From: a virus | DNA length: 20,303 nucleotides | IMG/VR virus record: IMGVR_UViG_3300047443_000137 | Location: 1-20,303 of that record | Strand: one strand, 5' to 3' | In this document: positions 176 through 20,303 of the stretch, in pieces | Layout of the letters: every line of letters starts with the position of its first letter | How positions within the stretch are numbered: position 1 is the stretch's first letter | Program-made: the position numbers and the translations under genes | Notes under the pieces: model-generated | Database searches by the model: none | Seen by the model: the letters and a program-made list of their open reading frames with translations, nothing else | What the model was told of the DNA's origin: nothing

Positions 176-2245
176 TCATTCGTTGCCCCCCGTCGTGTCC
201 CAGAAAGCGGTGACCGTGCCGCGGCAGCGGATGCCGCCCTCGCACGCGTGGTACGGGCCGGCCCCGTAAGCGGCCGTGACGTCGGCGAGCGAGGTGAAGT
301 TGGTGCCGTCGATGGCGCGGCACGGATCGCATGTGTTGGTGTCGTTCTTCTCACTGGCGACCCACCGCGCGGTCGGCGCGGCTTCGAGGGTGGCGATCCG
401 TCCGGTGTTCTGCGCGCGGTGGATGGCGCCGCCGAGCTGGTCCCGCTTGAACACGCCCTTGATCTTGCGGAGCGTGTTCTTCACCGCGTTCGCGACGTCG
501 GAACCGGACACCCCAGGAACGAAGCGGCGCACCGCTTCCTGCGCGGCCGTTGATGCGAGGCCAGAGGCAATCAGCGAGGCAACGGCCGTGGCGATCGAGG
601 TGAGTTCGTCGCCGAAGTTGATGATCTGGCCCGGGCGCAGGCGCGCGGACAGCGACTCGTCGACCTGGGGGGCCGTCACCTGCACGCCCTGCTTGCGGGC
701 TTCGTCTGCCATGCGGTCTGCGGCCTGCTGCGCCGCGGCCGCGAGCGCGGTCCGAACGGTGTCGGCGGCGCGGCTGGAGTCGAGGGTGAGCTCGGCCAGC
801 GCTGCTGTGTCGTCGTCGCTGATGGCCTGCTCGATCTGGGTGCCGAGCTGGTCGATCCATGCGTCGTCGATCGGGGCGAAGTCGGTGAGGAGCACGGTGA
901 GGGCGGTCTCGTGGTCCTGCTGCATCTGCTCCAGCGGATCGACGGCGGCATTGCGCGGGCCCGGGGCCCGCCCGAACAGCCCAGCAACTGCCTCATCCCA
1001 CGACGCCGCAGGAGCGCCAGGAGCGGCCGTCGGCAGCACGGGCGCAGGGGCCCGGCGCATCGCCGGCAGGCCGACCGCGGAGAGGATGTCGTCCGCGTCC
1101 CACAGCTGTGCTTCCGCGAGTTCCTTCGCGGCCTTGGCGCGTGCGGCAAGCTGTACCGACTCGGTCTCGACGTCCGTGGGTACCGGGTCGCAGTAGTCGA
1201 ACTCCAGGCTGTCCGCGGCGCGCCCGTACATGGGGAGCAGCTCGTGGTTGAGCGCGGCCTTGATGCGCTCCAGGCGGGGGATGGTCTGCTGCTCCGCGAA
1301 CCACGCCTTCGCCGCGAGGGCGGACGCCCTGTTGATGTCCTCGAAGTCGCCGATGGCGCTCTTCGAAATGCCGTACGCCTCGCGGACCCGGTCCGCGGTC
1401 GCGCCGCGCAGCTCGACGAACTGCATGTCCCGCTGGCTGATGGTGCGGTCGATCCACTTGCCCTGTTCGAGGATCGCCACCCGGTGCGCGTTCGCGACCC
1501 CTTTGTGCTGCTCGGCCCACCGGTCCCGCAACTCGGTGAACTCCTGGTCCGACAGTCGCTGGTCGAATTGCAGGATCCCGCCGGGCTGCGCGCTGTTCAT
1601 GAAGAACGCGCGTGACCACTCGGCCGCATACCTCGACGTGTCGAGGTCGGGCAGGATCGACAGCACTGGGGACAGCCCGCGGTACGGGTCCAGCGGGTTC
1701 GGCCGGCGGAGTTGGATGACCTGGTCGAGTTCGAGGGGGACCTGCTCGCCGTCGGGCGCCGTGTAGATGTAGCCCTTGAGGAAACGCTCGCGGTCCGGGA
1801 CCGGGGTCATGCGGTCGGGGCGGACGGGCCACAGTTCGAGTGGCAGCGTGGATGCGGCGTTGCGTCCGATGACCCACCAGGATTCGCCGGTGAGGTCGTA
1901 GTGCTGGGTGGACGACTCGACGAACTCCTGCCGCGGCATGAATCCGTTGGGCTTCCGCCACAGGTCGAGCGCGGCATGGCTCGTGACTTCGACGCGGTCC
2001 TCGGCGCGGCCTGACTTGGCCTTGCGGTACAGCTTCCAGTCGACGAGCGCGGTCGCGTTGGAGGTGCGGTCGACGATCGCGAAGAGCGTGGACACCGCGG
2101 ACATGGCCCGCATCTGGCCTTCTGCGTCACGGCGGGCGCCGAACATTCCGTACGACTGTGCGCGGCTGGTGTACGGGATGGGCAGGTCGGGGGTGCGGAG
2201 GCTGGCGGCTGCGTTGGCGAGGGAGCCGAAGAGGGTTCTTCCCAC
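176..2245 (-). CDS. HK97-type portal protein fused to MuF-like head morphogenesis domain
   Basis: This 689-aa protein combines two head-assembly functions. Residues about 20-400 read as an HK97/PF04860-type portal, the dodecameric ring through which DNA is packaged, with segments such as PNPLDPYRGLSP, SAQPGGIL and AIGDFEDINRASALAA. After an Ala/Pro-rich linker, the C-terminal 130 residues carry a MuF/SPP1-gp7-like motif with C639, C642, H666, C668 and C674 (TCDPCRAIDGTNF, then YHACEGGIRCRGTV), probably zinc binding. Portal and MuF are usually separate neighbouring genes, so the 689-aa length fits a fusion. The start is GTG at 2245, chosen for the GGGAGGT ribosome binding site 5 bases upstream. 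It lies downstream of the terminase genes in the same direction, as is standard. Portal identity is firm; the MuF assignment rests on the Cys/His pattern. Confidence 0.93.
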   Translation of the reverse strand: MGRTLFGSLANAAASLRTPDLPIPYTSRAQSYGMFGARRDAEGQMRAMSAVSTLFAIVDRTSNATALVDWKLYRKAKSGRAEDRVEVTSHAALDLWRKPNGFMPRQEFVESSTQHYDLTGESWWVIGRNAASTLPLELWPVRPDRMTPVPDRERFLKGYIYTAPDGEQVPLELDQVIQLRRPNPLDPYRGLSPVLSILPDLDTSRYAAEWSRAFFMNSAQPGGILQFDQRLSDQEFTELRDRWAEQHKGVANAHRVAILEQGKWIDRTISQRDMQFVELRGATADRVREAYGISKSAIGDFEDINRASALAAKAWFAEQQTIPRLERIKAALNHELLPMYGRAADSLEFDYCDPVPTDVETESVQLAARAKAAKELAEAQLWDADDILSAVGLPAMRRAPAPVLPTAAPGAPAASWDEAVAGLFGRAPGPRNAAVDPLEQMQQDHETALTVLLTDFAPIDDAWIDQLGTQIEQAISDDDTAALAELTLDSSRAADTVRTALAAAAQQAADRMADEARKQGVQVTAPQVDESLSARLRPGQIINFGDELTSIATAVASLIASGLASTAAQEAVRRFVPGVSGSDVANAVKNTLRKIKGVFKRDQLGGAIHRAQNTGRIATLEAAPTARWVASEKNDTNTCDPCRAIDGTNFTSLADVTAAYGAGPYHACEGGIRCRGTVTAFWDTTGGNE

Positions 2246-2262
2246 TCGGCACCTCCCTCACG

Positions 2263-2439
2263 TCAGTCGCTGTCGAGCACCCATTGCAGGACGCAGGTGA
2301 GGAGTCCTCCGGTGATGAGACCGACCCCGGTTCCGAAGATATTCCAGCATCCTGCTGTGATGAGTGTAAATCCTCCTGTCAACATGGATGCTGGCCGCAA
2401 ATCTTTCAGCTTCTTGGGGTTCACTTGAAGGTTCCTCAT
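2263..2439 (-). CDS. small membrane protein between terminase and portal
   Basis: This is a 58-aa protein with a basic N-terminus (MRNLQVNPKKLKDLRP) followed by a hydrophobic Gly/Thr/Leu-rich stretch from about residue 18 to 54 that would form one long or two short membrane segments. The ATG at 2439 overlaps the terminase stop as TGATG, and GAGGTGG lies about 5 bases upstream, so translational coupling to terminase is likely. The stop is 18 bases before the portal start. It sits in the packaging/head operon, but no known head component looks like this. I do not recognise the family; a membrane or accessory role is inferred from hydrophobicity only. Confidence 0.72.
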   Translation of the reverse strand: MRNLQVNPKKLKDLRPASMLTGGFTLITAGCWNIFGTGVGLITGGLLTCVLQWVLDSD

Positions 2440-3782
2440 CACAGCCACCTCACACGCGGACGACCCCCGAGATCCCGAGCGGCAACCATGTACCGCATCG
2501 CGTCCATCGAGTGATCGTTCTCCTTTACCGGCGCCTCTTTCAGACCACCGCTGTTGCCCGGCTTCACCGCCCACACATAGCCCGCGATCTCCTCCGACCC
2601 GCAGGCCGGCAGGGACGCCGACTCCAACTCCGGATCCCGCTCCACCAGCGCCCCACGCGCGATGAACAGGCGCGGCCGCCCGTCCTCCTGCACCCGCAGT
2701 CGGGCCTGCACCGCCTGAATCCCATCGCTGACCGTCTTCGTCGCAGGCTTCGTCGGTAGCCCCAAGTGGCGCTCCAGGGTGGCCCGGTCCTCCGCGTCGT
2801 GGTCCGCGTAGATCGCGCGCGGGAGCTGCCCGCGCGGCTGTCCGGACGGGTAGAACAGCAGGTCTTTGATGGTCTTCGCGTGGTCCTCGACGAGGCGGCG
2901 GGTGTAGTAGATCTCGTTGGCTAGGTACAGGCGGCCGTCGGGGTCCTCCCACCAGTCCTGGTAGACGAACGGGTTCGTGAACCCGAAGTCGACCGTTCCC
3001 CAACGGGTCCACGCCGCCGTCGGCTTGACCGCGTCGACCATGTGGATCGCGTCGTCCCACGCCTCGTAGATCTGCCCCTCGGCCGCCGCCCACTTCCCGT
3101 CACGGAGCCGCAGCCGCCGGACGCCGGTGAGCTTGTCGAGCTTCGCGAAGTAGTCGACGCCCTTCGCCGTGAGCGTCCCGTCCGCGTTGACGTAGGCGGG
3201 ATTGTCCTTGTGCCGGGAGACGAGCATGCGGGCAGTGCCGTCGTCGGCGCGCTGCTTGAGCCAGTGCGTCGGATGGCTGGGGTTGCATGCGGCGATCTGC
3301 TGCTGCCAGGAGAGGACACCGTTACGGAGGCGGGTGCTGATGGACTCCCAGTCCGTCTTGGTGAGTTCAGTGGCCTCGTCGACGAACACGAGGTCGTACT
3401 CCGAAGACATGATCTTCTCGGGCTTGTCGAGGCCCCCGACCACGATGACGCTGCCGTTGGAGTACCGGTAACAGGCGGCCTCCCGGGCGGACCCGCCGAA
3501 CCAGGAGACGATGCTGCGGGCCAGCGCGTCCGCGGCGACCTTCTTCTCGTACGTCACCAGCGTCGTCGAGGTGAGGGACACCCCGGTCTTGCGGGCGATG
3601 AGGCAGCGGATCCCCGGGTTGTGGAGCGCGGCAAGGTGCACACGGAACAGCGCAGCGAGGGACTTCCCGGTGCCGGCGGGCCCGGCGAGGACTACTTCGC
3701 TGTCGCGGGTGCGGAACAGGTCGCGTGCTGCGCCGCGGGGTTCGTAGCGGACGATCGCGTCCTGGTCGAGCGCGGTCGTCAC
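2439..3782 (-). CDS. terL: terminase large subunit (packaging ATPase-nuclease)
   Basis: This 447-aa protein is the phage DNA-packaging motor. The ATPase half has a Walker A motif GPAGTGKS (about residues 34-41), Walker B LVFVDEAT (131-138) and a coupling-motif region ACNPSHPTHW (165-174). The C-terminal half is an RNase H-like nuclease with candidate metal-binding aspartates in GTVDFGFTNP, IYADHDAED and NDHSMDAMRY, the order usual for large terminases. Length is normal for the PBSX/SPP1-like group. The start is GTG at 3782, which overlaps the preceding stop as GTGA. The open frame extends 62 codons further upstream, but that part is Arg/Pro-rich and lies antiphase within the 116-aa gene, so it is not translated as part of TerL. 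The gene lies between TerS and portal in one operon. Confidence 0.95.
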   Translation of the reverse strand: MTTALDQDAIVRYEPRGAARDLFRTRDSEVVLAGPAGTGKSLAALFRVHLAALHNPGIRCLIARKTGVSLTSTTLVTYEKKVAADALARSIVSWFGGSAREAACYRYSNGSVIVVGGLDKPEKIMSSEYDLVFVDEATELTKTDWESISTRLRNGVLSWQQQIAACNPSHPTHWLKQRADDGTARMLVSRHKDNPAYVNADGTLTAKGVDYFAKLDKLTGVRRLRLRDGKWAAAEGQIYEAWDDAIHMVDAVKPTAAWTRWGTVDFGFTNPFVYQDWWEDPDGRLYLANEIYYTRRLVEDHAKTIKDLLFYPSGQPRGQLPRAIYADHDAEDRATLERHLGLPTKPATKTVSDGIQAVQARLRVQEDGRPRLFIARGALVERDPELESASLPACGSEEIAGYVWAVKPGNSGGLKEAPVKENDHSMDAMRYMVAARDLGGRPRVRWL

Positions 3783-4129
3783 CCGAGGCCCACGAGGCTG
3801 TGGTGGCGGCGGATGCGGTCCTCGCGGTCGATGAAGTCGCGCAGCCAGGGCGCGCCAATACGAGCCTCGCGGCGTAGCACCAGGGCAACGGCCTCCCGGT
3901 TGTGCGGGTCGCGGAGCCACGCGGCGACGTCGGCGGCCGCGGGCTCGGGCGCGATGAGCCAGCCCCATGCCGTCGGCTCCGAGGCGGGGGCATCGTCGGC
4001 GGCGTCAAAGCACAGGTCCAGGTGTGGCTTGCACAGTCGGACGAGGCGCCCTTCAGGGCATTGCCACCAGGCGAGTGGGCCTGAGACGCAGGTGGGGAGG
4101 CGGAGTTCGCAGGGCCCAAGTTTGCTCAC
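3779..4129 (-). CDS. Cys-rich hypothetical protein between small and large terminase
   Basis: This 116-aa protein is inserted between the two terminase subunits and overlaps both by 4 bases (GTGA at each junction), so it is co-translated with packaging genes. The N-terminal 40 residues hold C7, C14, C24, C33, H36 and C40, a pattern consistent with a zinc-binding fold. The middle is acidic and Ala-rich with several Trp, and the C-terminus is basic (LRDFIDREDRIRRHHS). The start is GTG at 4129. Its place suggests a packaging or terminase accessory role, but HNH proteins, which often sit near terminases, have a clear His-Asn-His pattern that is absent here. I do not recognise the family. Confidence 0.8.
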   Translation of the reverse strand: MSKLGPCELRLPTCVSGPLAWWQCPEGRLVRLCKPHLDLCFDAADDAPASEPTAWGWLIAPEPAAADVAAWLRDPHNREAVALVLRREARIGAPWLRDFIDREDRIRRHHSLVGLG

Positions 4130-5761: not shown

Positions 5762-6106
5762 TCAGGCGGCGGGCCGGAAGGGGCCCCAGTCGCCGCGCAT
5801 CACGCGGTTGTACGGGCGGTCTTCGACTTCGAGGGGAAGGTCGGACCAGACGAGGTGGGTGATGCCGAGGTCGATCGCGGCAGCCACCCGATGGTGGCCG
5901 TCGACGAGCCACGGCGCACCGTGGAAGGTGCGGATCATGATGGGGAGTTCCATGCCGGCCTGGCGGATCTCGTCGAGGAGGCCGGCATAGTGCTCGGACT
6001 TCCGCTTGTGGTCGAGGATGTCGCGGACGGACAGGCAGTCGACGGTGTCGTCATCGTCGGGCGTGGCCATGTCGAGAACTTCGGTGACGGGAATGATGCC
6101 GAGCAT
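5762..6106 (-). CDS. ParB-like (sulfiredoxin-fold) domain protein
   Basis: This 114-aa protein carries a ParB N-terminal/sulfiredoxin-like domain. The diagnostic segment is WLVDGHHRVAAAIDLGITHL at about residues 66-85, matching the DGHHR box of ParB-like nucleases and CTPases, preceded by a LLDEIRQAGMELPIMIR helix-strand unit. It has no C-terminal HTH or dimer domain, so it is not a full partition ParB. Stand-alone ParB-like domains in phages are variously nucleases, CTP-binding proteins or DNA-modification partners. The AGGAGG ribosome binding site is 6 bases before ATG at 6106 and overlaps the WYL gene's stop region, so the two are one operon. The catalytic activity cannot be told from the sequence. 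Confidence 0.8.
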   Translation of the reverse strand: MLGIIPVTEVLDMATPDDDDTVDCLSVRDILDHKRKSEHYAGLLDEIRQAGMELPIMIRTFHGAPWLVDGHHRVAAAIDLGITHLVWSDLPLEVEDRPYNRVMRGDWGPFRPAA

Positions 6107-6115
6107 GGCGGCCTC

Positions 6116-6502
6116 CTAGGCGGCGAGCGCGTCGGCGAGGAGCTGGACGCGGGTGGTGATGGGGCAGTCGACGGGGTAGAGCACGGTGACCGTGGCGAGA
6201 CCCGAGGTGCGGGCCGGCTTGTCGTCGGCGGCCGGGCGGGCGATGACGTAGGCAGTCCTGTGGATCGTGTAGGAGACGAGGCGGTCCAGCCGGAAGGAGC
6301 GTGCTTCCTGGCTGTCGCGGTCCATGCCCTTCAGGAGGATGTCGCCGGCGGCGCTGACGACGATGTTGTACAGCTCGACGGTGCGAATCGTCTCCGACCC
6401 GTCGGCCTTGGTGTAGGTGATGGTGACGGGGTGGCGCTTGTCGAGGGCGGTGATGAGGCGGGTGAGGGTCTGGGTGGTGGTCTCGTTCGCCGTGCGCCTC
6501 AT
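6116..6502 (-). CDS. stand-alone WYL-like domain protein
   Basis: This is a 128-aa protein whose centre matches the WYL-domain pattern: an N-terminal helix (TLTRLITALDKRHPV), the strand TITYTKADGSETIRTVELY, then ILLKGMDRDSQEARSFRLDR and LVSYT. WYL domains sense nucleic-acid or nucleotide ligands and regulate defence and phage genes. Here there is no HTH in front of it, which is unusual, so it may act as a ligand sensor or partner of another regulator. ATG at 6502 has GAGGGGGA about 6 bases upstream; the frame is open to 6562 but upstream starts would cover operator sites. It is the first gene of the minus operon and is divergent from the RHH gene, so it is probably controlled by the three palindromes. 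The WYL call is by eye and moderate. Confidence 0.7.
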   Translation of the reverse strand: MRRTANETTTQTLTRLITALDKRHPVTITYTKADGSETIRTVELYNIVVSAAGDILLKGMDRDSQEARSFRLDRLVSYTIHRTAYVIARPAADDKPARTSGLATVTVLYPVDCPITTRVQLLADALAA

Positions 6503-6615: not shown

Positions 6616-6975
6616 ATGGAAACCGAGGCCGAATACGACACCCCCCGCCGCTTCCGCGCCCCCGACGACGAGTGGGAGCCGTTCGAGGCCGCCACCCGCG
6701 CCGTACACCCCGAAGGCCGCAGCCCCCGCGGCCGCGTCATCCGCGAGTTCATGCGCTGGTACATGCGCCGCCCCGGAGCCAAGCTCCCCGAACGCCCGGC
6801 CGCCGGACCCTGGACCCGCAGCGCGAACGCGTGCAACGCCCCGGGGGACGCGCCCAACAGCTCTGGCAAGGAGCGCTGCGAGCTGCCTGCCGGACATGCC
6901 GGGCGCCACTACGAGGGGACCGTGACGTGGCCGCAGAAGAAGCGCCCGGTGAGCGGCGAGGAGAAGAACGCATGA
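6616..6975 (+). CDS. ribbon-helix-helix-like DNA-binding protein with zinc motif
   Basis: This is a 119-aa protein. Residues about 9-58 (TPRRFRAPDDEWEPFEAATR, then SPRGRVIREFMRWYMRR) have the strand-helix-helix pattern of ribbon-helix-helix regulators: a short basic strand, an amphipathic helix, then a basic helix. The C-terminal half carries C73, C88, H94 and H98 (RCELPAGHAGRH), a Cys/His set common in actinophage proteins that probably binds zinc. It is the first gene of the rightward trio and sits directly beside three palindromic operators, so it is the leading candidate for the protein that binds them and regulates itself and the WYL operon. The start codon ATG at 6616 appears leaderless. 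The RHH call is by pattern; the XRE protein in the same operon is an alternative binder. Confidence 0.75.
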   Translation: METEAEYDTPRRFRAPDDEWEPFEAATRAVHPEGRSPRGRVIREFMRWYMRRPGAKLPERPAAGPWTRSANACNAPGDAPNSSGKERCELPAGHAGRHYEGTVTWPQKKRPVSGEEKNA

Positions 6976-7265
6976 GCGAGCCGCAGCAGCTCACCAGCGA
7001 GCAGGTAGCCGCACTGCGGAGGCAGCTCAACAACCGGCCCGTGCAGGCCCTCGGCACGATCGTGCGCGGTGAGCCCCTGCCGCCGCTCCCACCGTGCCCC
7101 GCGTGTGGGAATACTGCCGAGCGCGTCGACGAGCGGGTAGAGGATCCCCAGTTCGGCGTGTACGAGACGGCGCTGCTCGTGCGCTGGTCGCCGTGTGGGC
7201 ACCGCTTCCGTGCGGTGGTCGACCCGGACGCGGGCCCGGTGCGCCCGGACGAGGAGCCCACGTGA
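6972..7265 (+). CDS. zinc-ribbon protein, 97 aa
   Basis: The start ATG at 6972 overlaps the preceding stop as ATGA. Residues 1-35 form a helix and a loop (LTSEQVAALRRQLNNRPVQA), followed by C42-x2-C45 (PPCPACGNT) and a second half-site C75-x1-H77 (SPCGHRF), which together would make a zinc ribbon. Between them is a beta-rich stretch (YETALLVRWSP). It is the middle gene of the rightward operon and overlaps the next gene as GTGA. Small zinc ribbons of this type are frequent in Streptomyces phages but their roles are unknown; nucleic-acid or protein binding is only an inference. No catalytic motif is visible. Confidence 0.8.
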   Translation: MSEPQQLTSEQVAALRRQLNNRPVQALGTIVRGEPLPPLPPCPACGNTAERVDERVEDPQFGVYETALLVRWSPCGHRFRAVVDPDAGPVRPDEEPT

Positions 7266-9599: not shown

Positions 9600-10136
9600 T
9601 CAGGTGGCGGCGGGTGCCCAAAGGGCGAGCGCGAGAATGGTGGTGGCGAGAGGGATACGGGCGGCCCACGCGAGGCCCGCCCACCAGTGGCGGGTGCGGC
9701 GGTCCCACACGTGGGCGACGAGCAGGCAAGTGCCGATGCCGAGGGTGAGCGCGCCGCTGGTGCTGTAGCGGGTGCCGCAGTCGGCGAGGGATGCGGCGCA
9801 CTGCTGGTAGAGGCCGAGGCCCCACCCGGCCCCGGCCGCGGACGCGTTGTAGAGCAGGGCGCGGGTTTTGGGGCTGATCGCGGGGCGGGCCGGCAGGTGG
9901 GTGAGGGCGTCGGGGAGGTGGGGGCGCGGCCAGTAGTCGGGCTGCGGGGTGAAGCGGCCGGGCGCTGTCTCCTTGGCCTCGGGCTCCTCGTCGGCCTCGG
10001 CCTCGGGTTCGTCGTCGTAGATCTGGTCCCACCAGTCGTCGGCGGTCATGGTGTCTCCGAGGGCGTCGGGGCCTACGCCGCGGAGGCGCAGGATGTCGCG
10101 GATGGTGATCTCGTCGGGGCCCGGGTCGCGGCTCAC
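9600..10136 (-). CDS. membrane protein with acidic N-terminal domain, 178 aa
   Basis: The first 60 residues are soluble and acidic (DDWWDQIYDDEPEAEADEEP). A Pro-rich region follows (RFTPQPDYWPRPHLPDALTH), then three hydrophobic segments at about 92-113, 122-144 and 151-175. The start is GTG at 10136, overlapping the DUF2637 gene's stop as GTGA. It lies directly downstream of DUF2637 and upstream of the Gly-rich membrane protein. This gene order, several small membrane proteins after a DUF2637 gene, is reminiscent of plasmid spread regions. No enzymatic motif is visible. The frame upstream of 10136 overlaps DUF2637 and is not used. Confidence 0.8.
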   Translation of the reverse strand: MSRDPGPDEITIRDILRLRGVGPDALGDTMTADDWWDQIYDDEPEAEADEEPEAKETAPGRFTPQPDYWPRPHLPDALTHLPARPAISPKTRALLYNASAAGAGWGLGLYQQCAASLADCGTRYSTSGALTLGIGTCLLVAHVWDRRTRHWWAGLAWAARIPLATTILALALWAPAAT

Positions 10137-11260
10137 GTGTAGAACCCCGTTCCGTCGCTGATCCGGCCGCGCGCGTCCTTGAGCCGACGGCCCGCGGTGG
10201 CCGGGCTCACGCCGAGGATTTGAGCCGCGGTGTCCTTCGTGAGCCGCTCCCCGTCCCTGAGCCGGGACGCGAGGGTGACGATCTGCTGCTCGATCCGATG
10301 GGCTTCGGGCTCAGGGTCCGGCTCACTCGGCTCAGCGGGGCTCACGAGGGTGGGCTCAGCCGGGCTCAAGACGGGCTCACGTGAGACGTGCTGGTCAACG
10401 GGTTGGGCGGGCGGCGGAGTCGAGGGCAGCACGGGCTCGGGTGCGGCGACGATGAGCGCGGTCTGCACGGTCGTCTCAAAGCCCGGCTCACGGTCGGGCT
10501 CACGGTCTGAGCCGGGCTCAGGCTCACGGATCACCGGCTCAGCCGGGGGCAGTGCAGGCTGAGCCGGGGCGTGCTCGATGTCGAGGACACCTGAGACCGG
10601 AGCCAAGTCCCGCCCGTAGCGGGTCAGGCGCAGCGCCATAACAGCCGACACCGGAGCCTTGCTGCGCCAGCGCCGCCCGTACCGGGCTCGCAGCCGGGCC
10701 CGCTCGACGAGCCGGGACTGCTCCAGCGCGATTACCTGGTCGTAGGAGCGCAGCTCCCACAGCTTCATACGGCGCCACAGCCGGAACGTGGAGATCGGGT
10801 CGAGGAACCAGCGCGCCATGCGGACGGAGTCCATGTGGCGGCCGGCCGTGATGTCGGCGGTCCGTCCGATCGCGTGGCGGGCCGCCTCGACGACGACGAC
10901 GAACAGGACCGGGATCACGGCGTGCATGCCGGTGCCGATGGGGTCGGGCCAGGCGGCTGCGGCGTTGAACGCGATCGTCGCTGTGGTGAGGAGCCATGCG
11001 GTGTGGCGGAGCATGGCGAGCGGCATGCGCAGCCACGTGAGGAGGAGGTCAAGGGCGAGGAGGACGAGGATTCCGGCGTCGATGCCGATGGGGAAGGCGT
11101 GCGCGAAGGCGCCGAAGCCCTTGGCCGTGGCGAGCTTGGCGACCGCGGCGTAGGAGCCGACGAAGCCGATCGCTGCGATCACGGCCGCTCCGGTGGCGAC
11201 GGCGATGATGAGTCGGCGTTGCAGGTCGGTGACCTTGGGGCGGTCGCTGGGCGTCTTCAC
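10133..11260 (-). CDS. DUF2637 membrane protein with C-terminal helix-turn-helix
   Basis: This 375-aa protein has four membrane spans (about 17-38, 56-76, 84-104, 113-127) and the PIGIDAGILVLLALDLLL segment typical of DUF2637, a family known from Streptomyces plasmids, integrative elements and phages. A basic cytoplasmic region follows (WFLDPISTFRLWRRMKLWEL). After a 110-residue Glu/Pro-rich linker, the last 45 residues form an HTH (AAQILGVSPATAGRRLKDAR). Such proteins have been linked to intramycelial plasmid spread (SpdB-like), but that role is inferred from context and not shown by the sequence. GTG at 11260 has GGAG 6 bases upstream; the open frame continues to 11599 across the lipoprotein gene and is not used. 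The linker is encoded by repeated GGCTCA units. Confidence 0.87.
   Translation of the reverse strand: MKTPSDRPKVTDLQRRLIIAVATGAAVIAAIGFVGSYAAVAKLATAKGFGAFAHAFPIGIDAGILVLLALDLLLTWLRMPLAMLRHTAWLLTTATIAFNAAAAWPDPIGTGMHAVIPVLFVVVVEAARHAIGRTADITAGRHMDSVRMARWFLDPISTFRLWRRMKLWELRSYDQVIALEQSRLVERARLRARYGRRWRSKAPVSAVMALRLTRYGRDLAPVSGVLDIEHAPAQPALPPAEPVIREPEPGSDREPDREPGFETTVQTALIVAAPEPVLPSTPPPAQPVDQHVSREPVLSPAEPTLVSPAEPSEPDPEPEAHRIEQQIVTLASRLRDGERLTKDTAAQILGVSPATAGRRLKDARGRISDGTGFYT
10300..10570. repeat. low-complexity GGCTCA repeat inside DUF2637 gene
   Basis: The hexamer GGCTCA (TGAGCC on the coding strand) recurs many times, often as CGGGCTCA, at irregular spacing. It encodes the Ser/Ala-Glu-Pro and Arg-Glu-Pro units of the disordered linker. 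Such repeats can change length by slippage or recombination, so the linker may vary between related elements. Confidence 0.7.
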
Positions 11261-11298
11261 GGTGGTCTCCGGGTGGCGGGGAGAGGGGCGGTGCGGGG

Positions 11299-11628
11299 TC
11301 AGCGCTGCGCGCACTTCGCTTCGACGAGCTGCGCGGCCTGGTCCCAGTCGACGGAGTCGTCGCCGGCGCCGATGCGCATCTGCTCGGCGCCCCAGTCGGT
11401 GCCGTAGAGCGCGAGGCCGAAGCACATGGCGTCTTTGTCGGCTTCGGTCTGCTGGTCCCAGGAGAGGTCGACGACGGTCTGCGTCATGTCGTCGGCGGCC
11501 GGGGTGGTTTCGATGACGGTGGTGGTCGCGGGGTTGTCGCTGCTGTCGCTGCTCCCGGCCGACGTGCAGGCGGTGAGGGCGAGTACGGCGGCGGCGCATA
11601 TCGCGGCGAGGGCGTGGCGGATCTTCAT
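11299..11628 (-). CDS. secreted lipoprotein, 109 aa
   Basis: The N-terminus is a lipoprotein signal peptide: positively charged MKIRH, hydrophobic core AALAAICAAAVLAL-type, and lipobox L18-T-A-C21, so C21 would be lipidated after cleavage. A Ser/Thr/Asp-rich flexible segment follows and then a small folded domain of about 60 residues with two further cysteines (AMCFGLALYGTDWG near residue 69, VEAKCAQR at the C-terminus) that could form a disulfide. GGAG lies 10 bases before the ATG at 11628. It is the first gene of the membrane module, 38 bases before DUF2637. Phage or plasmid lipoproteins commonly act in superinfection or entry exclusion, but no exclusion family is recognised here. Confidence 0.85.
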   Translation of the reverse strand: MKIRHALAAICAAAVLALTACTSAGSSDSSDNPATTTVIETTPAADDMTQTVVDLSWDQQTEADKDAMCFGLALYGTDWGAEQMRIGAGDDSVDWDQAAQLVEAKCAQR

Positions 11629-12086: not shown

Positions 12087-12325
12087 CGGGCACCCGCGAT
12101 CTCGCGCAGCCGGGCCGCGTAGGCGCCGCGGGTAGTGGGCTCGGTGACCTCGGGGATGAACTCCAGGAGCAGCGCCGCGAATCCGTTGGTGACGTCGTCG
12201 GCGAGGGTGCGTCGGTCGGCCGCGGTGAACTCGGCGTCGGCCGGCTGCTCGGGGTCGTGGTCGAGGCGGTCGGCCATGGTGATGAGGTGGGCGCGGGGGA
12301 CGGTGTAGGTGGGCTGGTCGCTCAT
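12083..12325 (-). CDS. hypothetical acidic protein, 80 aa
   Basis: It reads MSDQPTYTVPRAHLITMADR and continues through an acidic region with DHDPEQPADAEFTAADRRTL and a C-terminal helical part (GFAALLLEFIPEV, RGAYAARLREIAGAR). ATG at 12325 overlaps the HNH gene's stop as ATGA. It is all-helical by composition and soluble, without cysteine. The extended frame to 12403 lies antiphase to the HNH gene and is not used. Its position right after an HNH endonuclease gives no firm functional clue. Confidence 0.72.
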   Translation of the reverse strand: MSDQPTYTVPRAHLITMADRLDHDPEQPADAEFTAADRRTLADDVTNGFAALLLEFIPEVTEPTTRGAYAARLREIAGAR

Positions 12326-12843
12326 GCGGTCGCCGCCGGACGAGAAGGGGCGTGCCGCCTCGCAGCGCTGCTCCGCGTCCAACCGCGCTGGCACTCCTTG
12401 CACCTGCGAGTGCCGTTCGATTTGAAGTACGTGTTGCTCTCGTCGAACGGGTGGCCGTGTGTGCAGTGAGTCTTGCGGGCCTTATTGGAGCGGCGGCTGT
12501 TCTCCAGGGGCGTCACCGGTTCCAGGTGCGCAGGGTTGATACAGCGCCGGTGCATGCAGTCGTTGCCGCCGTTGCACTCTTTCGCTGCTGTGTGGCAAAC
12601 GTGGTCGATTTGCAGGCCTGCGGGGACCGGCTGGACCATCGCTTCGTAGGTCGCGCGGTGCGCGAACTGGTGCTTCCCGTCGACCCTGGTCCTGCCGTAC
12701 CCCTCGATGTCGACGTAGCCCGTCCAGATCAGGCAGGCACCGCGCCCGGCGACCGCCGTGCTCAAGAGCCGGATGGCGAGCGGGCTGGGGCTGAACGGCA
12801 CGCCGGGGCTGCCCGGCGGTTGGATGTCGCGGATACGATCCAC
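12322..12843 (-). CDS. HNH endonuclease with zinc motifs (173 aa)
   Basis: Residues about 37-115 carry a HNH-type nuclease: CLIWTGYVDIEGYGRTRVDG leads into the AHRATYEAM helix, then LQIDHVCH (D80, H81) and CINPAHLEPV (N103, H106), the expected DH...N...H catalytic/metal set. C83, C90, C96 and C101 give a zinc site. A second zinc motif follows (C127, H129, H131, C148, C151), as in free-standing homing-type HNH enzymes of Streptomyces phages. GTG at 12843 is the likely start; AGCAGG lies just upstream but is part of an RNA stem. It is the first gene of a leftward operon behind a structured leader (12844-12922). It could be a homing endonuclease or take part in packaging or recombination. Confidence 0.88.
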   Translation of the reverse strand: MDRIRDIQPPGSPGVPFSPSPLAIRLLSTAVAGRGACLIWTGYVDIEGYGRTRVDGKHQFAHRATYEAMVQPVPAGLQIDHVCHTAAKECNGGNDCMHRRCINPAHLEPVTPLENSRRSNKARKTHCTHGHPFDESNTYFKSNGTRRCKECQRGWTRSSAARRHAPSRPAATA

Positions 12844-12922
12844 GGTGGACCTGCTCTTTCGTCGCTGTGAGAGGGGGTCCACCCCTCGGCCCGGAGTTCC
12901 AGCTCCACATGGGCCGAGGGGT
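12844..12922 (-). promoter_or_regulatory. structured leader of the HNH operon, two competing hairpins
   Basis: In the minus-strand RNA a 12-bp hairpin (ACCCCTCGGCCC at 12922-12911 with its complement at 12892-12881) is followed by an 8-bp hairpin (GGTGGACC at 12883-12876 with GGTCCACC at 12851-12844). They share bases 12881-12883, so the two full stems cannot coexist. The second stem ends directly at the GTG start and includes the GG of the AGCAGG ribosome binding site. On the plus strand the first hairpin is followed by TTTT. Regulation is inferred. Confidence 0.5.
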
Positions 12923-12954
12923 TTTCCCTTTACCGAGTACGACCGTAGCGAGAA

Positions 12955-12973
12955 GTGTGGACAATGTCCACAC
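12955..12973. promoter_or_regulatory. 19-bp operator-like palindrome before the HTH gene
   Basis: GTGTGGACAATGTCCACAC has perfect 9-bp arms around a central A. It ends 20 bases before the chosen ATG at 12994, where the transcription start or early transcript would be, so a bound protein would block expression. Likely binders are the HTH product itself or an element-encoded repressor. Confidence 0.65.
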
Positions 12974-12985
12974 CTCTCCGAGAGG
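12973..12985 (+). promoter_or_regulatory. hairpin overlapping the ribosome binding site of the HTH gene
   Basis: CCTCT pairs with AGAGG across a CCG loop; the 3' arm AGAGG is the Shine-Dalgarno for ATG at 12994, 8 bases away. If formed in the mRNA it would reduce initiation. The stem has only 5 bp, so the effect may be modest. Confidence 0.4.
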
Positions 12986-12993
12986 ATTGGCCC

Positions 12994-13251
12994 ATGCCCG
13001 ACGCCCCCCAGCGGCAAGAGCCGGAGAGGGAGACGATGACCATCCCGAAACTCGCCGAGAGGGTGGGGCGCAGCCGCACCCTGATCCACCGGCTTGCGAC
13101 GAACCCCGCCGAGGGGTGGCCCGCTCCTGTGTTCAAGGCCGGTAGCTCGCGCCCGGAGTACGACGTCCGTTGGTTTGATCAGTACTGGACTGAGCGACAG
13201 GCGGGTATCCGGCAGGGGAAGCGCACCGACTTGGACAAGCCAGAGGAGTGA
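12994..13251 (+). CDS. excisionase/AlpA-like helix-turn-helix protein, 85 aa
   Basis: After a short acidic N-terminus the segment MTIPKLAERVGRSRTLIHRL is a helix-turn-helix, followed by WPAPVFKAGSSRPEYDVRWF, the wing-like region of MerR/AlpA/Xis-type small DNA-binding proteins, and a polar C-terminus. Such proteins are excisionases or transcription activators in prophages and integrative elements. It is one of only two plus-strand islands. I chose ATG at 12994 because AGAGG is 8 bases upstream; ATG at 12964 and GTG at 12955 in frame would put the palindrome inside the coding sequence. No integrase lies next to it, so an excisionase role is uncertain and a transcriptional regulator is equally possible. 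Confidence 0.8.
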   Translation: MPDAPQRQEPERETMTIPKLAERVGRSRTLIHRLATNPAEGWPAPVFKAGSSRPEYDVRWFDQYWTERQAGIRQGKRTDLDKPEE

Positions 13252-13678: not shown

Positions 13679-13954
13679 TCAAACAGGCTGCTGCCACGTC
13701 GTCAACGGCGGGTCCTCCCGGATCGGGCACTCGATACAGCCCCCGTCGCGGGCCTGCTGGCACTGCTCCAGGTGGCGGCGCCCCGATGCGAACACCGGGG
13801 TGCGCCAACGCCGTTCGTCGGGGTCACCAGCGACGATCCAGTCCGGGCCGACGGCTTCGATACGGACGCATTGGTCGTGGTCGCGGCCGAAGGCTCCGCC
13901 GGCGTCGCGGTGGATGACGTCGCCGGGCGCGAGGGGGCGGAGAGGTTCAGGCAT
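13679..13954 (-). CDS. hypothetical protein with C-terminal Cys motif, 91 aa
   Basis: The protein has a beta-rich N-terminal part (MPEPLRPLAPGDVIHRDAGG, then HDQCVRIEAVGPDWIVAGDP) that could form a small SH3-like barrel, and a C-terminal stretch with C65, C73 and C76 (EQCQQARDGGCIECPI). ATG at 13954 has AAGGAG 7 bases upstream and overlaps the end of the HNH gene by 8 bases; the longer frame to 14059 would lie within the HNH gene. It is the last protein gene of the leftward train. Function not recognised; protein or nucleic-acid binding is possible. Confidence 0.78.
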   Translation of the reverse strand: MPEPLRPLAPGDVIHRDAGGAFGRDHDQCVRIEAVGPDWIVAGDPDERRWRTPVFASGRRHLEQCQQARDGGCIECPIREDPPLTTWQQPV

Positions 13955-14444
13955 CGGCCGGCTCCTTCTGGTCGAGGGCGCGGGACGGGTGAGACTTCCA
14001 GAACCCGCCTTCACGCGCTTTCCGTCTGCGGTAGTAATCGCGTTGCGCAACGCGGGCACAGATGCGGCACCTACGCCGCCTACCGCCGTGGGTTGGCTTC
14101 ACGTTGCGATCCGCCAAGGGGTGGCCTTGTGCGCACACCTCGTGTGGCTTGTCACCCCCTGCCGCGCGCCCGCGCTTCACCATGTCTGCCACGTTGGCGC
14201 CCTGGCTGCCGACGTAGATGTGTGCAGGGTTGAAGCAGGGCGGGTTGTCGCAGTGGTGCAGCGCCTTCTGCTCCGGATCATTGAGGTCCAGCCCGTACAC
14301 GAGGTACGCGACCACTCTGTGAACCCTGCGCACCCTTCCGTGCCAAGAGATGCGTCCGTAGCCGTGTTCTGTGCGACTGCGTGTCCATTCCCAGCAGCCG
14401 GCATCTGTGATGAGGCGATGCGCTAGAAGCCGATCAGGTATCAC
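13947..14444 (-). CDS. HNH endonuclease, HNH_3-type (165 aa)
   Basis: The catalytic core reads ALHHCDNPPCFNPAHIYVGS (about residues 61-80), with H63, H64, N72 and H75 and zinc ligands C65 and C70. The preceding CWEWTRSRTEHGYGRISWHG and RVHRVVAYLVYGL segments, and the following NVADMVKRGRAAGG, match the HNH_3 family of free-standing phage endonucleases. A second Cys/His motif (C104, H108, C126, C129) and a basic tail may bind DNA. GTG at 14444 has AAGGAG 7 bases upstream and overlaps the 139-aa gene by 11 bases. A free-standing HNH gene within a tight operon is typical of a mobile homing endonuclease insertion. It is clearly distinct from the HNH gene at 12322-12843. Confidence 0.9.
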   Translation of the reverse strand: MIPDRLLAHRLITDAGCWEWTRSRTEHGYGRISWHGRVRRVHRVVAYLVYGLDLNDPEQKALHHCDNPPCFNPAHIYVGSQGANVADMVKRGRAAGGDKPHEVCAQGHPLADRNVKPTHGGRRRRCRICARVAQRDYYRRRKAREGGFWKSHPSRALDQKEPADA

Positions 14445-16214: not shown

Positions 16215-16345
16215 CGGGTCCTCCGTGTGCGGATGCGGGTGGTGAGGGCGCGCCCGCCCCGCCGGATGGCGAGGAGGGCGCAGACGGCGAAGGGCCAGAG
16301 AACGATGGCGACGCCGAGGACCCAGCCCCAATCGACGCGGCTCAC
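16211..16345 (-). CDS. 44-aa single-span membrane protein
   Basis: The sequence starts VSRVDWGWVLGVAIVLWPFA and continues VCALLAIRRGGRALTTRIRT, one membrane span followed by a basic, cytoplasmic tail. GTG at 16345 has GGGAGG 4 bases upstream and overlaps the XF1762-family gene's stop as GTGA; its own stop overlaps the next ATG. The longer frame to 16540 overlaps that gene antiphase and is not used. The tight double overlap supports reality. Function unknown. Confidence 0.72.
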   Translation of the reverse strand: MSRVDWGWVLGVAIVLWPFAVCALLAIRRGGRALTTRIRTRRTR

Positions 16346-16791
16346 GAGGCCTCCCAGAGGGTCCGCGGGATGGCCTCCGTGCCAGTCGCCGTGCGCGGTC
16401 GGCTCGGCCTGTCCCAGCCAGGATTCGCGGGGCGTTCGGCGAGGACGCGCCACCCGGCAGCGCGGAGGCTGGCGCCGGTCTCTCCGGCCTGCGTGTACGT
16501 GATCAGTCGCGTGTAGCCGAGGGCTTTCGCTGCGCGCCATGCTGCGCCGTACAGCAGCGAGTTGCAGTTGCGGGTGCCGTCAGCGGCGGTGCGGGTGACC
16601 TCCAGCGTCTGGCCGTTGTCGAAGAGCCGGGCGATGGGGCGGCCGACGACGGCGACGCCGTGCAGAACACCGTCGTCGTCTGCGGCTCCGACGGCGAACA
16701 CCATGCCGACCGGGGGTTGGTGGTGGCGATGCCACATGGCGACGAACGCAGCAGCATCCCGGAAGCGGACGGGGACCAGGTGGAGAGTCAC
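16342..16791 (-). CDS. XF1762-family protein (GNAT-like fold likely)
   Basis: This 149-aa protein shows the family's conserved blocks in order: LHLVPVRFRDAAAFVAMWHR, HHQPPVGMVFAVGA, VAVVGRPIARLFDNG, TLEVTRTAADGTRNCNSLLY, AAWRAAKALGYTRLITYT and GASLRAAGWRV. The family is widespread in phages and is probably an acetyltransferase-like enzyme, but its substrate is unknown. GTG at 16791 was chosen: it overlaps the preceding stop as GTGA like its neighbours and has GGAGG 9 bases upstream, whereas GTG at 16800 would directly abut that GGAGG. It lies in the middle of the small-gene train. Family identity is from memory of the pattern; biochemical role is inference. Confidence 0.82.
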   Translation of the reverse strand: MTLHLVPVRFRDAAAFVAMWHRHHQPPVGMVFAVGAADDDGVLHGVAVVGRPIARLFDNGQTLEVTRTAADGTRNCNSLLYGAAWRAAKALGYTRLITYTQAGETGASLRAAGWRVLAERPANPGWDRPSRPRTATGTEAIPRTLWEAS

Positions 16792-16958
16792 GGCGTCCAC
16801 CCTCCGGGGTTGAGGCGTCGGTCGGCTTCCTCGATCAGCACCCGCAGCCGATACGAGTGCGTGCCGGATACCGCAGCCAGGGCGGCGACTTCTTCGGCGT
16901 CCAGTTCGATGTGGACGCGCTTCTCGCCTTCGCGCCGGTTGGTGTAGACGATCTCCAT
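16788..16958 (-). CDS. 56-aa hypothetical protein, arc-like fold possible
   Basis: It reads MEIVYTNRREGEKRVHIELD followed by AEEVAALAAVSGTHSYRLRV and an acidic helix LIEEADRRLN. The strand-then-two-helices pattern could be a small RHH-like or similar fold, but basic DNA-contact residues are few. ATG at 16958 overlaps the preceding stop as TGATG and has GGAGG 7 bases upstream; GTG at 16961 is an alternative. Its stop overlaps the XF1762 GTG. It is a soluble microprotein of the train, function unknown. Confidence 0.74.
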   Translation of the reverse strand: MEIVYTNRREGEKRVHIELDAEEVAALAAVSGTHSYRLRVLIEEADRRLNPGGWTP

Positions 16959-19078: not shown

Positions 19079-19480
19079 TCAGGCGGTGGGTTGTGGCTGG
19101 TTGGCGATCTCCAGGAGGACGGCGGCGTGGCAGTGGTCGGGTTGTCCGGGCTGGGGTGGGGGGCACCAGCACATGAGGTCGCGGTCGGCGAGCTGGCGGC
19201 GGGCGGCGGCCAGTAGGCCGGGCTGGCTGGAGAGCCAGGCGCGGTACCAGGTGACGGCGATGCGGCGTGCGTCGTGGTCGCTGGTGCCGCCGTAGATCAC
19301 GCCGTCGGTCCGGGAGTCGATGACTGCGTGGGTCGGGCCGCACTGCTTGACGGTGTAGGGGTTGCCCCATTGGGTGCCGCGGCCGACGTAGGTGGCGCCG
19401 TGGGGTGCGCGCCAGCCTTTGGTGCGGCGGCGTTGGATGCGGCGGGGTTGGGGGTCGAGGGTGGGCTGTCGGGTGGTCAT
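19079..19480 (-). CDS. DUF4326 domain protein
   Basis: This 133-aa protein has the DUF4326 blocks in order: RIQRRRTKGWRAPHGATYVG, RGTQWGNPYTV, ARRIAVTWYRAWLSSQPGLL, and DLMCWCPPPQPGQPDHCHAA followed by VLLEIANQ. The CWC...CH set is the conserved feature and may be a metal or active site. The family is common in phage and bacterial genomes and has no established function. ATG at 19480 overlaps the replication gene's stop as ATGA, so it is translated in tandem with the replication gene. Family identity is strong. Confidence 0.9.
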   Translation of the reverse strand: MTTRQPTLDPQPRRIQRRRTKGWRAPHGATYVGRGTQWGNPYTVKQCGPTHAVIDSRTDGVIYGGTSDHDARRIAVTWYRAWLSSQPGLLAAARRQLADRDLMCWCPPPQPGQPDHCHAAVLLEIANQPQPTA

Positions 19481-20303
19481 GCGCTGTGCCTCTCTGTGTG
19501 GTTGGTGGTGGGGTGTTGGGGTGTGTCGGGGTGGCTGCCGGTGGCGGGGTCGCAGCCGATGTGGGTGTCGTATCCGCGGTTGGCCCAGTCGGTGTTCATG
19601 GGGGTTTCGCAGATGGTGCAGAGGGGGGTGTCTGTGGCACCTGTGCCAGGGCTTCCCTCCCCCTTCCCCTCTCGTAGAGGGGGGGAAGGGGGGGAAGGGG
19701 GGGTTCCCGCTGGTTCCCGAGAGGTTCCCGGGGAATGGTTGACCTGGGGTTTTTGCAATCCCTTTGAAGTTCCCGGGGAACGTTCCCCGGGAACGTCTTC
19801 CGGGAAGGTCTCCGGGAACCCTTCGCGGGAACCCGAGTTGTCCCGGTTCTTCCGGTTCCTGACGGCGGCTTCGATCTTGATTTTCGCGGCCCTGATCCCG
19901 GCTCCCGCGAGAGCCGACTTCGTCCGCGGGTTACCCGCATCGTTCGGCAGACCAAGGCTGTCAATCTTCGCCATGAGCCACTCGACGGAGCCCTCTTCCA
20001 CCGCCTGCTGCGGACGGTCGTACTCCATGAGGACGTGGCGGGTGCAGCCGGGCCGGTAGCGGTCGCCGTCCTTCTGTGACTGCCGCACCAGGACGAAGGC
20101 GTCCGGTCCGATCCCGGTACGGGTGTGGGTCCGCTTCAGGACGAGGGTGCCGCCGCCCTGCGCGCGGAGCTCCCATACGTGGTCGACGTCCTGCGTCTTC
20201 GCGGACGAGCCGCGGGCGCCGCGCTCGCCGTCCTTGCCCATGTGGTCGAGGCGTATGGACGCGATGCCGGCGCGCTTCAGGGGGAGCAGGGTGTGGCGGT
20301 AGA
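19477..20303 (-). CDS. RepA/RecA-like replicative ATPase, C-terminal part (5' end outside the window)
   Basis: The frame enters from the right edge and gives 274 residues. The first 45 (AGIASIRLDHMGKDGERGAR, then GSSAKTQDVDHVWEL) match the D-H-x-G-K and R-G-S-S-A-K segment of AAA/RecA-fold hexameric helicases of the RepA/DnaB-like group. The beta core continues to about residue 95. A helical region follows (SVEWLMAKIDSLGLPNDAGN) that resembles a winged-helix or dimer domain. Then comes a disordered, Pro/Gly/Ser-rich linker of about 60 residues encoded by the repeat cluster at 19703-19832, and a short Cys/His region (CTICETPMNTDW, HIGCD). Its C-terminus overlaps DUF4326 as ATGA. A replicative helicase or primase-helicase role is probable; walker motifs lie outside the window. 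Confidence 0.82.
   Translation of the reverse strand, partial: YRHTLLPLKRAGIASIRLDHMGKDGERGARGSSAKTQDVDHVWELRAQGGGTLVLKRTHTRTGIGPDAFVLVRQSQKDGDRYRPGCTRHVLMEYDRPQQAVEEGSVEWLMAKIDSLGLPNDAGNPRTKSALAGAGIRAAKIKIEAAVRNRKNRDNSGSREGFPETFPEDVPGERSPGTSKGLQKPQVNHSPGTSREPAGTPPSPPSPPLREGKGEGSPGTGATDTPLCTICETPMNTDWANRGYDTHIGCDPATGSHPDTPQHPTTNHTERHSA
19665..19690. repeat. imperfect hairpin beside the G-tract
   Basis: CCCCTCT and AGAGGGG pair around CGT (about 19666-19682), and CCCTT on the left can further pair with AAGGG on the right after a bulge of extra G. It overlaps the first run of the triple G-tract. Confidence 0.55.
19679..19703 (+). repeat. triple G7 tract separated by AA
   Basis: The plus strand reads three runs of seven G, each separated by AA. 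It could fold as a G-quadruplex on the plus strand, or expose the C-rich minus strand; it is coding for the Pro/Ser-rich linker of the replication protein. It is next to the GTTCCC repeat cluster. Confidence 0.85.
19703..19832. repeat. cluster of GTTCCC/GGGAAC repeats (iteron-like) inside the replication gene
   Basis: Within 130 bases there are seven complete copies of GTTCCC or its complement GGGAAC plus variants: units at 19703, 19713, 19724 (GTTCCCGGGGAAT), 19769 (GTTCCCGGGGAAC), 19782 (GTTCCCCGGGAAC), 19797 (CTTCCGGGAAG), 19813 and 19826 (CGGGAAC). The pair at 19769-19794 together forms a perfect 26-bp palindrome. The repeats occur in more than one reading frame of the host gene, so the DNA motif rather than the peptide appears to be repeated. 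This is what an origin of replication with iterons inside a replication gene looks like; the role is inferred. Confidence 0.75.

Follow-up and report, generated by a model that had tools for sequence, protein, structure and literature searches.

A candidate replication origin inside the helicase gene of a temperate Streptomyces phage

Why should a dense cluster of short repeats lie in the part of a phage replication gene that encodes a disordered linker? The question is raised by the right end of the window (the whole stretch of DNA analyzed here, a linear fragment of 20,303 bp from a virus record), at which a helicase gene is located. The features on which the argument depends are as follows, in positions of the window.

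19477-20301, minus strand: final 274 codons (3' part) of the replication helicase gene, whose 5' part lies beyond the window end.
19837-19995, minus strand: small domain of three helices preceding the linker and proposed to read the iterons (from covariation and the AF2 model for a relative).
19930-19932, minus strand: class-predicting residue, Asn of DAGNPRT (covariation).
19636-19836, minus strand: disordered linker with the cis element inside (pLDDT of about 25-39 in the close relative L003).
19659-19832, no strand assigned: whole candidate origin element, namely repeat array, core and hairpin (shuffles and cross-relative layout).
19769-19832, no strand assigned: iteron block 1, nearer the helicase domain, with GTTCCC starting at 19769 and 19782, GGGAAC at 19776, 19789, 19814 and 19827, and the palindrome GTTCCCGGGGAACGTTCCCCGGGAAC at 19769-19794.
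19737-19773, minus strand: conserved core and AT-rich stretch, a candidate unwinding element (CAGGTCAACC at 19737-19746).
19703-19729, plus strand: iteron block 2, nearer the hairpin, with GTTCCC starting at 19703, 19713 and 19724.
About 19659-19692, no strand assigned: hairpin with variable arms at a fixed distance from the core, a candidate single-strand priming or assembly site (44-locus comparison).
19537-19626, minus strand: C-terminal putative zinc ribbon, CxxC...RGYDTHxxC, after the linker (no counterpart in prim-pol-type relatives).

The first-pass annotation took the gene for that of a replication ATPase and placed the repeats in the region encoding a disordered linker, and the relatives of the protein bear out both statements. 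The protein shares 52% identity with gp21 of Streptomyces phage mu1/6, annotated as 'DNA helicase', and further relatives were found in many Streptomyces prophages. In full-length relatives, Pfam identified a DnaB N-terminal domain and an AAA_25 ATPase, and the structure model of one of them (L003) matched DnaB helicases in PDB with a best E of 2.2e-15. Judged by family and modeled fold, the product of the window gene is a replicative helicase. The L003 model bears three helices near residues 431-480, followed by a linker (residues 481-548) of very low confidence, as for disorder. Note that the window helicase gene is incomplete and that the relatives used are mostly metagenome or prophage sequences.

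Elsewhere in the window, all on the minus strand, we found a gene for a DUF2637 protein (10133-11599; E of 2e-38) in this phage fragment and a portal protein gene with a weak Mu F-like C-terminal stretch, possibly a portal-MuF fusion (176-2245). The gene at 16342-16800 weakly matched, below the cut-off, the Mom family of DNA-modification proteins (E of 0.0023), and two endonuclease-like genes (12322-13089 and 13947-14444) were recognized by an HNH_3 match and a sub-threshold match to zinc-binding homing endonucleases.

Nine GTTCCC/GGGAAC units were counted within 19703-19832, where at least seven in 130 bases had been claimed. The 26-bp palindrome reported earlier is indeed perfect, and its two halves encode VPGE and RSPGT, each in another frame, so that the repeats are used in different frames as the first-pass annotation had it. 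Codon shuffles that kept both the peptide and the codon usage yielded a mean of 1.09 units against the nine observed, and none of 1000 shuffles reached nine. The same excess was found in the GTTCC-type homologues tested and in mu1/6, where CCTGCCC occurs ten times in the array (0 of 1000 codon-preserving shuffles matched). No other 300-nt stretch of the window holds as many copies of the motif as the array (9 of 18), and in each of six related phage records the relevant motif is likewise most crowded, over 300 nt, in the helicase linker.

There is more to the element than was given initially for 19703-19832, as an AT-rich core and a hairpin belong to it. The relatives share one layout, in which repeats are followed by an AT-rich CAGGTCAAAC core, further repeats and, about 71 nt from that core, a hairpin. 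The core consensus is AAACC[CG]CAGGTCA[AG]AC or near it, followed by an iteron, and the core region contains the most AT-rich 24-mers of the window (15 of 24 positions A/T, top of 20,279). Iterons are in both orientations within arrays, and the positions of the units relative to the core share a register across iteron classes (N versus R, 0.32, and 0.09 when shifted). Across 44 loci, the center of the hairpin loop lies at +71 +/- 3.6 nt, counted from the start of the core. These loci carry 39 distinct hairpin sequences, and arm pairing amounted to 0.93 within own arms versus 0.68 across loci. Since the hairpin by itself did not exceed codon-preserving shuffles at several single loci, the case for it is carried by its fixed place and the covariation of its arms. 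Against an origin, no DnaA-like box was detected within 600 nt of the element at six loci, and the GC skew of six related phage records does not turn at the site, so that this measure is uninformative here. Two loci are rearranged. In L116, one helicase linker has two copies of the core that point in opposite directions (at about 6503 on the minus strand and 6668 on the plus strand). In L063, an inversion splits the prophage helicase gene (2240-3808 on the plus strand and 6738-7151 on the minus strand) with its breakpoint where the helicase domain gives way to the linker, so that the linker with the origin element and the zinc ribbon are now on the opposite strand at a distance of about 3 kb.

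Is this element kept for the peptide or for the DNA? We read the codon phase of the core from the helicase or zinc-ribbon reading frame. The core lies in phase 0 in one clade and encodes PQVKHSPG, and in phase 1 in other clades, encoding AGQTFPG, AGQTSPG or AGQTCPG. In 54 phase-0/phase-1 pairs, a mean of 21.6 of 30 nt around the core were identical, while the peptides shared 1.6 of 10 residues. This cross-frame comparison is moderate evidence when taken alone, because synonymously shuffled sequences, at the best of 61 offsets, still averaged 18.9 of 30. The relatives devoid of the linker were gathered by a pattern scan and a profile scan; 8 of the 27 pattern matches (L049, L050, L052, L055, L056, L059, L060 and L069) had no helicase match, look like chance and were set aside. 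Prim-pol-type relatives possess neither the linker nor the C-terminal putative zinc ribbon, and the sole one so examined by Pfam (L058) comprises Prim-Pol and AAA_25. Array, core and hairpin are intergenic, directly after the helicase stop codon, in L120 (with CTGTACC iterons), L122 and L123 (CTGTCCC) and L124 (CTGTTCC), and an intergenic element in the opposite orientation was found in L118/L058 (CCTCCCC). L138 and L229 are intermediate, with the upstream repeats inside the ORF and the core 11-14 nt past the stop codon. Thus, the explanation by a repeated peptide, which the first-pass annotation had denied, is excluded, because the core is read in two frames and the element is intergenic in relatives, once inverted. 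The homologue check suggested along with that annotation gave the same answer, as the DNA element is kept while peptide and reading frame change. The distribution fits an intergenic origin later covered by an extended reading frame, this being the direction in which we infer the change.

Which protein reads the iterons? Their sequence varies by phage (GTTCCC, CCTGCCC, CCTGTCC, CTGTACC, CTGTTCC and CCTCCCC), and so does one residue of the helicase. Just before the linker, a domain of about 60 residues contains an invariant glycine followed by a variable residue, termed X here. Asn at X accompanies GTTCC/GTTTCC iterons, Arg accompanies CTGNCC iterons, and Ser (rarely Gly, Val or Gln) accompanies CTCCCC iterons. 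Among all aligned columns of 40 helicases, X was the best predictor of iteron class (0.95, leave-one-out), followed by 0.87 for the next-best column outside the linker and a maximum of 0.82 in the ATPase; this comparison covered helicase columns, and other conserved proteins of the replication region exist outside it. On a tree inferred from the ATPase only, X changes 11 times and the iteron class 10 times, giving about ten co-switches, with the iteron motifs of some loci assigned by hand before tree scoring. The scored independent Asn/GTT pairs were all concordant, although the tree offers only five such pairs on well-supported (starred) branches and six in all, and the sign test on the former gives p of 0.0625. 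Loci fetched later fit the pattern (L207-L219, L229, L230 and L242-L245) and added Gln as a CTCCCC residue. The same class-predicting residue is found across differing ATPase and N-terminal architectures (L053, L162, L138 and L122).

Two loci fall outside the three classes. The distant relative L121 combines Arg with CGCACC(G) repeats (800-1000), and its hairpin is on the opposite side of the core. L119 has a different C-terminal domain, and its CGTGTCC array (6016-6475) lacks the CAGGTCA core seen elsewhere.

In the AF2 model of a relative, the domain folds into three helices, and X is the first residue of the second. The proposal that the domain binds DNA rests on the covariation, because it had no significant match in Pfam, PDB sequences or a fold search. 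Part of the association between X and the iterons could be linkage, as domain and array are neighbors, but the reuse of X in different protein backgrounds argues for recognition. The putative zinc ribbon was also considered as the iteron reader and is disfavored, being missing in prim-pol-type relatives and not class-specific in look; that of L117 resembles those of GTTCC phages.

Altogether, we propose that the element is very probably the origin at which a temperate Streptomyces phage starts to replicate, lying in the linker-coding DNA of its own helicase, and that the helicase binds the iterons through the three-helix domain. The assignment of the origin to this site, made initially from the repeats, has gained support from the kept DNA element, its intergenic counterparts and the covariation. 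Probably the helicase itself acts as the initiator that binds the origin, because X predicts the iteron class and about ten co-switches are seen on the ATPase tree. From the anatomy of the element, its conservation as DNA, its intergenic counterparts and the covariation, we infer that binding, melting, loading, priming and replication take place here as follows. The helicase would bind the phage-specific iterons through the three-helix domain, whose codons come immediately before those of the linker, and X would contribute to the choice of iteron. The AT-rich core would be opened by oligomers formed on the iteron arrays to either side, the ATPase ring may load there, and on single-stranded DNA the hairpin about 71 nt off could be the place of priming or assembly.

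The array may be an origin and yet be read by another phage or host protein, with the helicase domain merely traveling along. We consider this unlikely. Recombination would move the domain and the adjoining array together, no known DNA-binding family was matched by the domain, and the proteins outside the predictor comparison might be the readers. Nevertheless, X is common to helicases of differing ATPase and N-terminal architectures, and the zinc ribbon, equally adjacent to the array, does not appear to follow the iteron class.

Iteron arrays in plasmids serve copy control and partition too, and the element might accordingly be no origin but an operator or a site of partition or incompatibility. 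The odds are heavily against this, as the replication region of mu1/6 has no annotated partition gene, and the hairpin, the AT-rich core and the covariation with the helicase point to initiation. An RNA-level element in the helicase mRNA (an attenuator, a terminator or a translation control) would make sense of a hairpin that is strong as RNA; it is scarcely credible for an element that runs opposite to the helicase gene in L118/L058, lies past the stop codon in other relatives and has iterons facing both ways. Practically no credence is left for an artefact of peptide repetition or GC-rich composition. A Pro/Gly-rich linker in a 70% GC genome invites such a reading, which is already contradicted by the codon-preserving shuffles that fall short, the differing frames and the intergenic copies.

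Beyond the origin within the helicase gene, the evidence is evenly balanced on a broader proposal, namely an actinobacterial phage replicon family in which the helicase recognizes its own origin via a new three-helix domain. A near one-residue code (Asn/GTT, Arg/CTG, Ser or Gln/CTC) would have undergone repeated specificity switches, and an intergenic origin would have become a translated disordered linker while keeping its function. If so, the origin of a widespread group of Streptomyces phages would be a separable piece of about 180 bp with a specificity code readable from one residue, offering orthogonal replicons for Streptomyces vectors and a rule to locate origins in unannotated prophages. 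It would also exemplify how an overlap of cis-acting DNA and coding sequence arises, with intergenic, half-inside and fully-inside arrangements all seen.

The closest counterpart is mu1/6 (NC_007967), with its homologous helicase and the same layout at about 14.1-14.4 kb. Unlike the window, its iteron (CCTGCCC) belongs to another class, and gp21 is annotated only as a DNA helicase. We found no earlier origin prediction for mu1/6 in the literature searched, the mu1/6 genome paper being outside it, and plasmid records contained no homologue of the L122 helicase.

An origin within an initiator gene, the precedent invoked by the first-pass annotation, is known from lambdoid phages, in which iterons and an AT-rich tract lie in the middle of gene O (PMC7466680). 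Here, likewise, iterons lie inside the gene of the putative initiator, a helicase gene, and an AT-rich tract adjoins them; a further likeness is that the iteron number alters the protein length in lambdoid gene O (PMC7466680). In contrast, lambda O is no helicase and recruits host DnaB via P, and the window helicase, with DnaB-N and AAA_25, is not homologous to it. The present iterons are short, bidirectional and changing in sequence by phage, and the hairpin is at a fixed distance, unlike in lambda.

P4 alpha, as described in PMC4234260, binds origin repeats with a DNA-binding domain of its own, and thus resembles the present protein in being a single multifunctional replication protein with a helicase and a (here putative) origin-repeat-binding domain. 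By the same description, P4 alpha differs in its winged helix, whereas the three-helix domain tracks the iteron class and matches neither a winged helix nor another structure, in its Toprim-type primase in place of DnaB-N or Prim-Pol N-terminal domains with an AAA_25 ATPase, and in the origin, which lies in the gene here. In plasmid pRN1, the origin follows immediately after the prim-pol helicase gene and has a stem-loop conserved in structure and variable in sequence, matching the intergenic relatives; pRN1 has no iterons, unlike the arrays here, and its helicase is of SF3 type with a winged helix (PMC4234260). RSF1010, in the account of PMC4234260, primes at the origin hairpins ssiA and ssiB, and RepA/RepB'/RepC work with iterons and hairpins at the origin as proposed here, but there as three separate proteins, with RepC, not a helicase, binding the iterons. 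By analogy, the present system appears to combine features of lambda O, P4 alpha, pRN1 and RSF1010, with an architecture like that of P4 alpha and an origin placed like that in lambda O.
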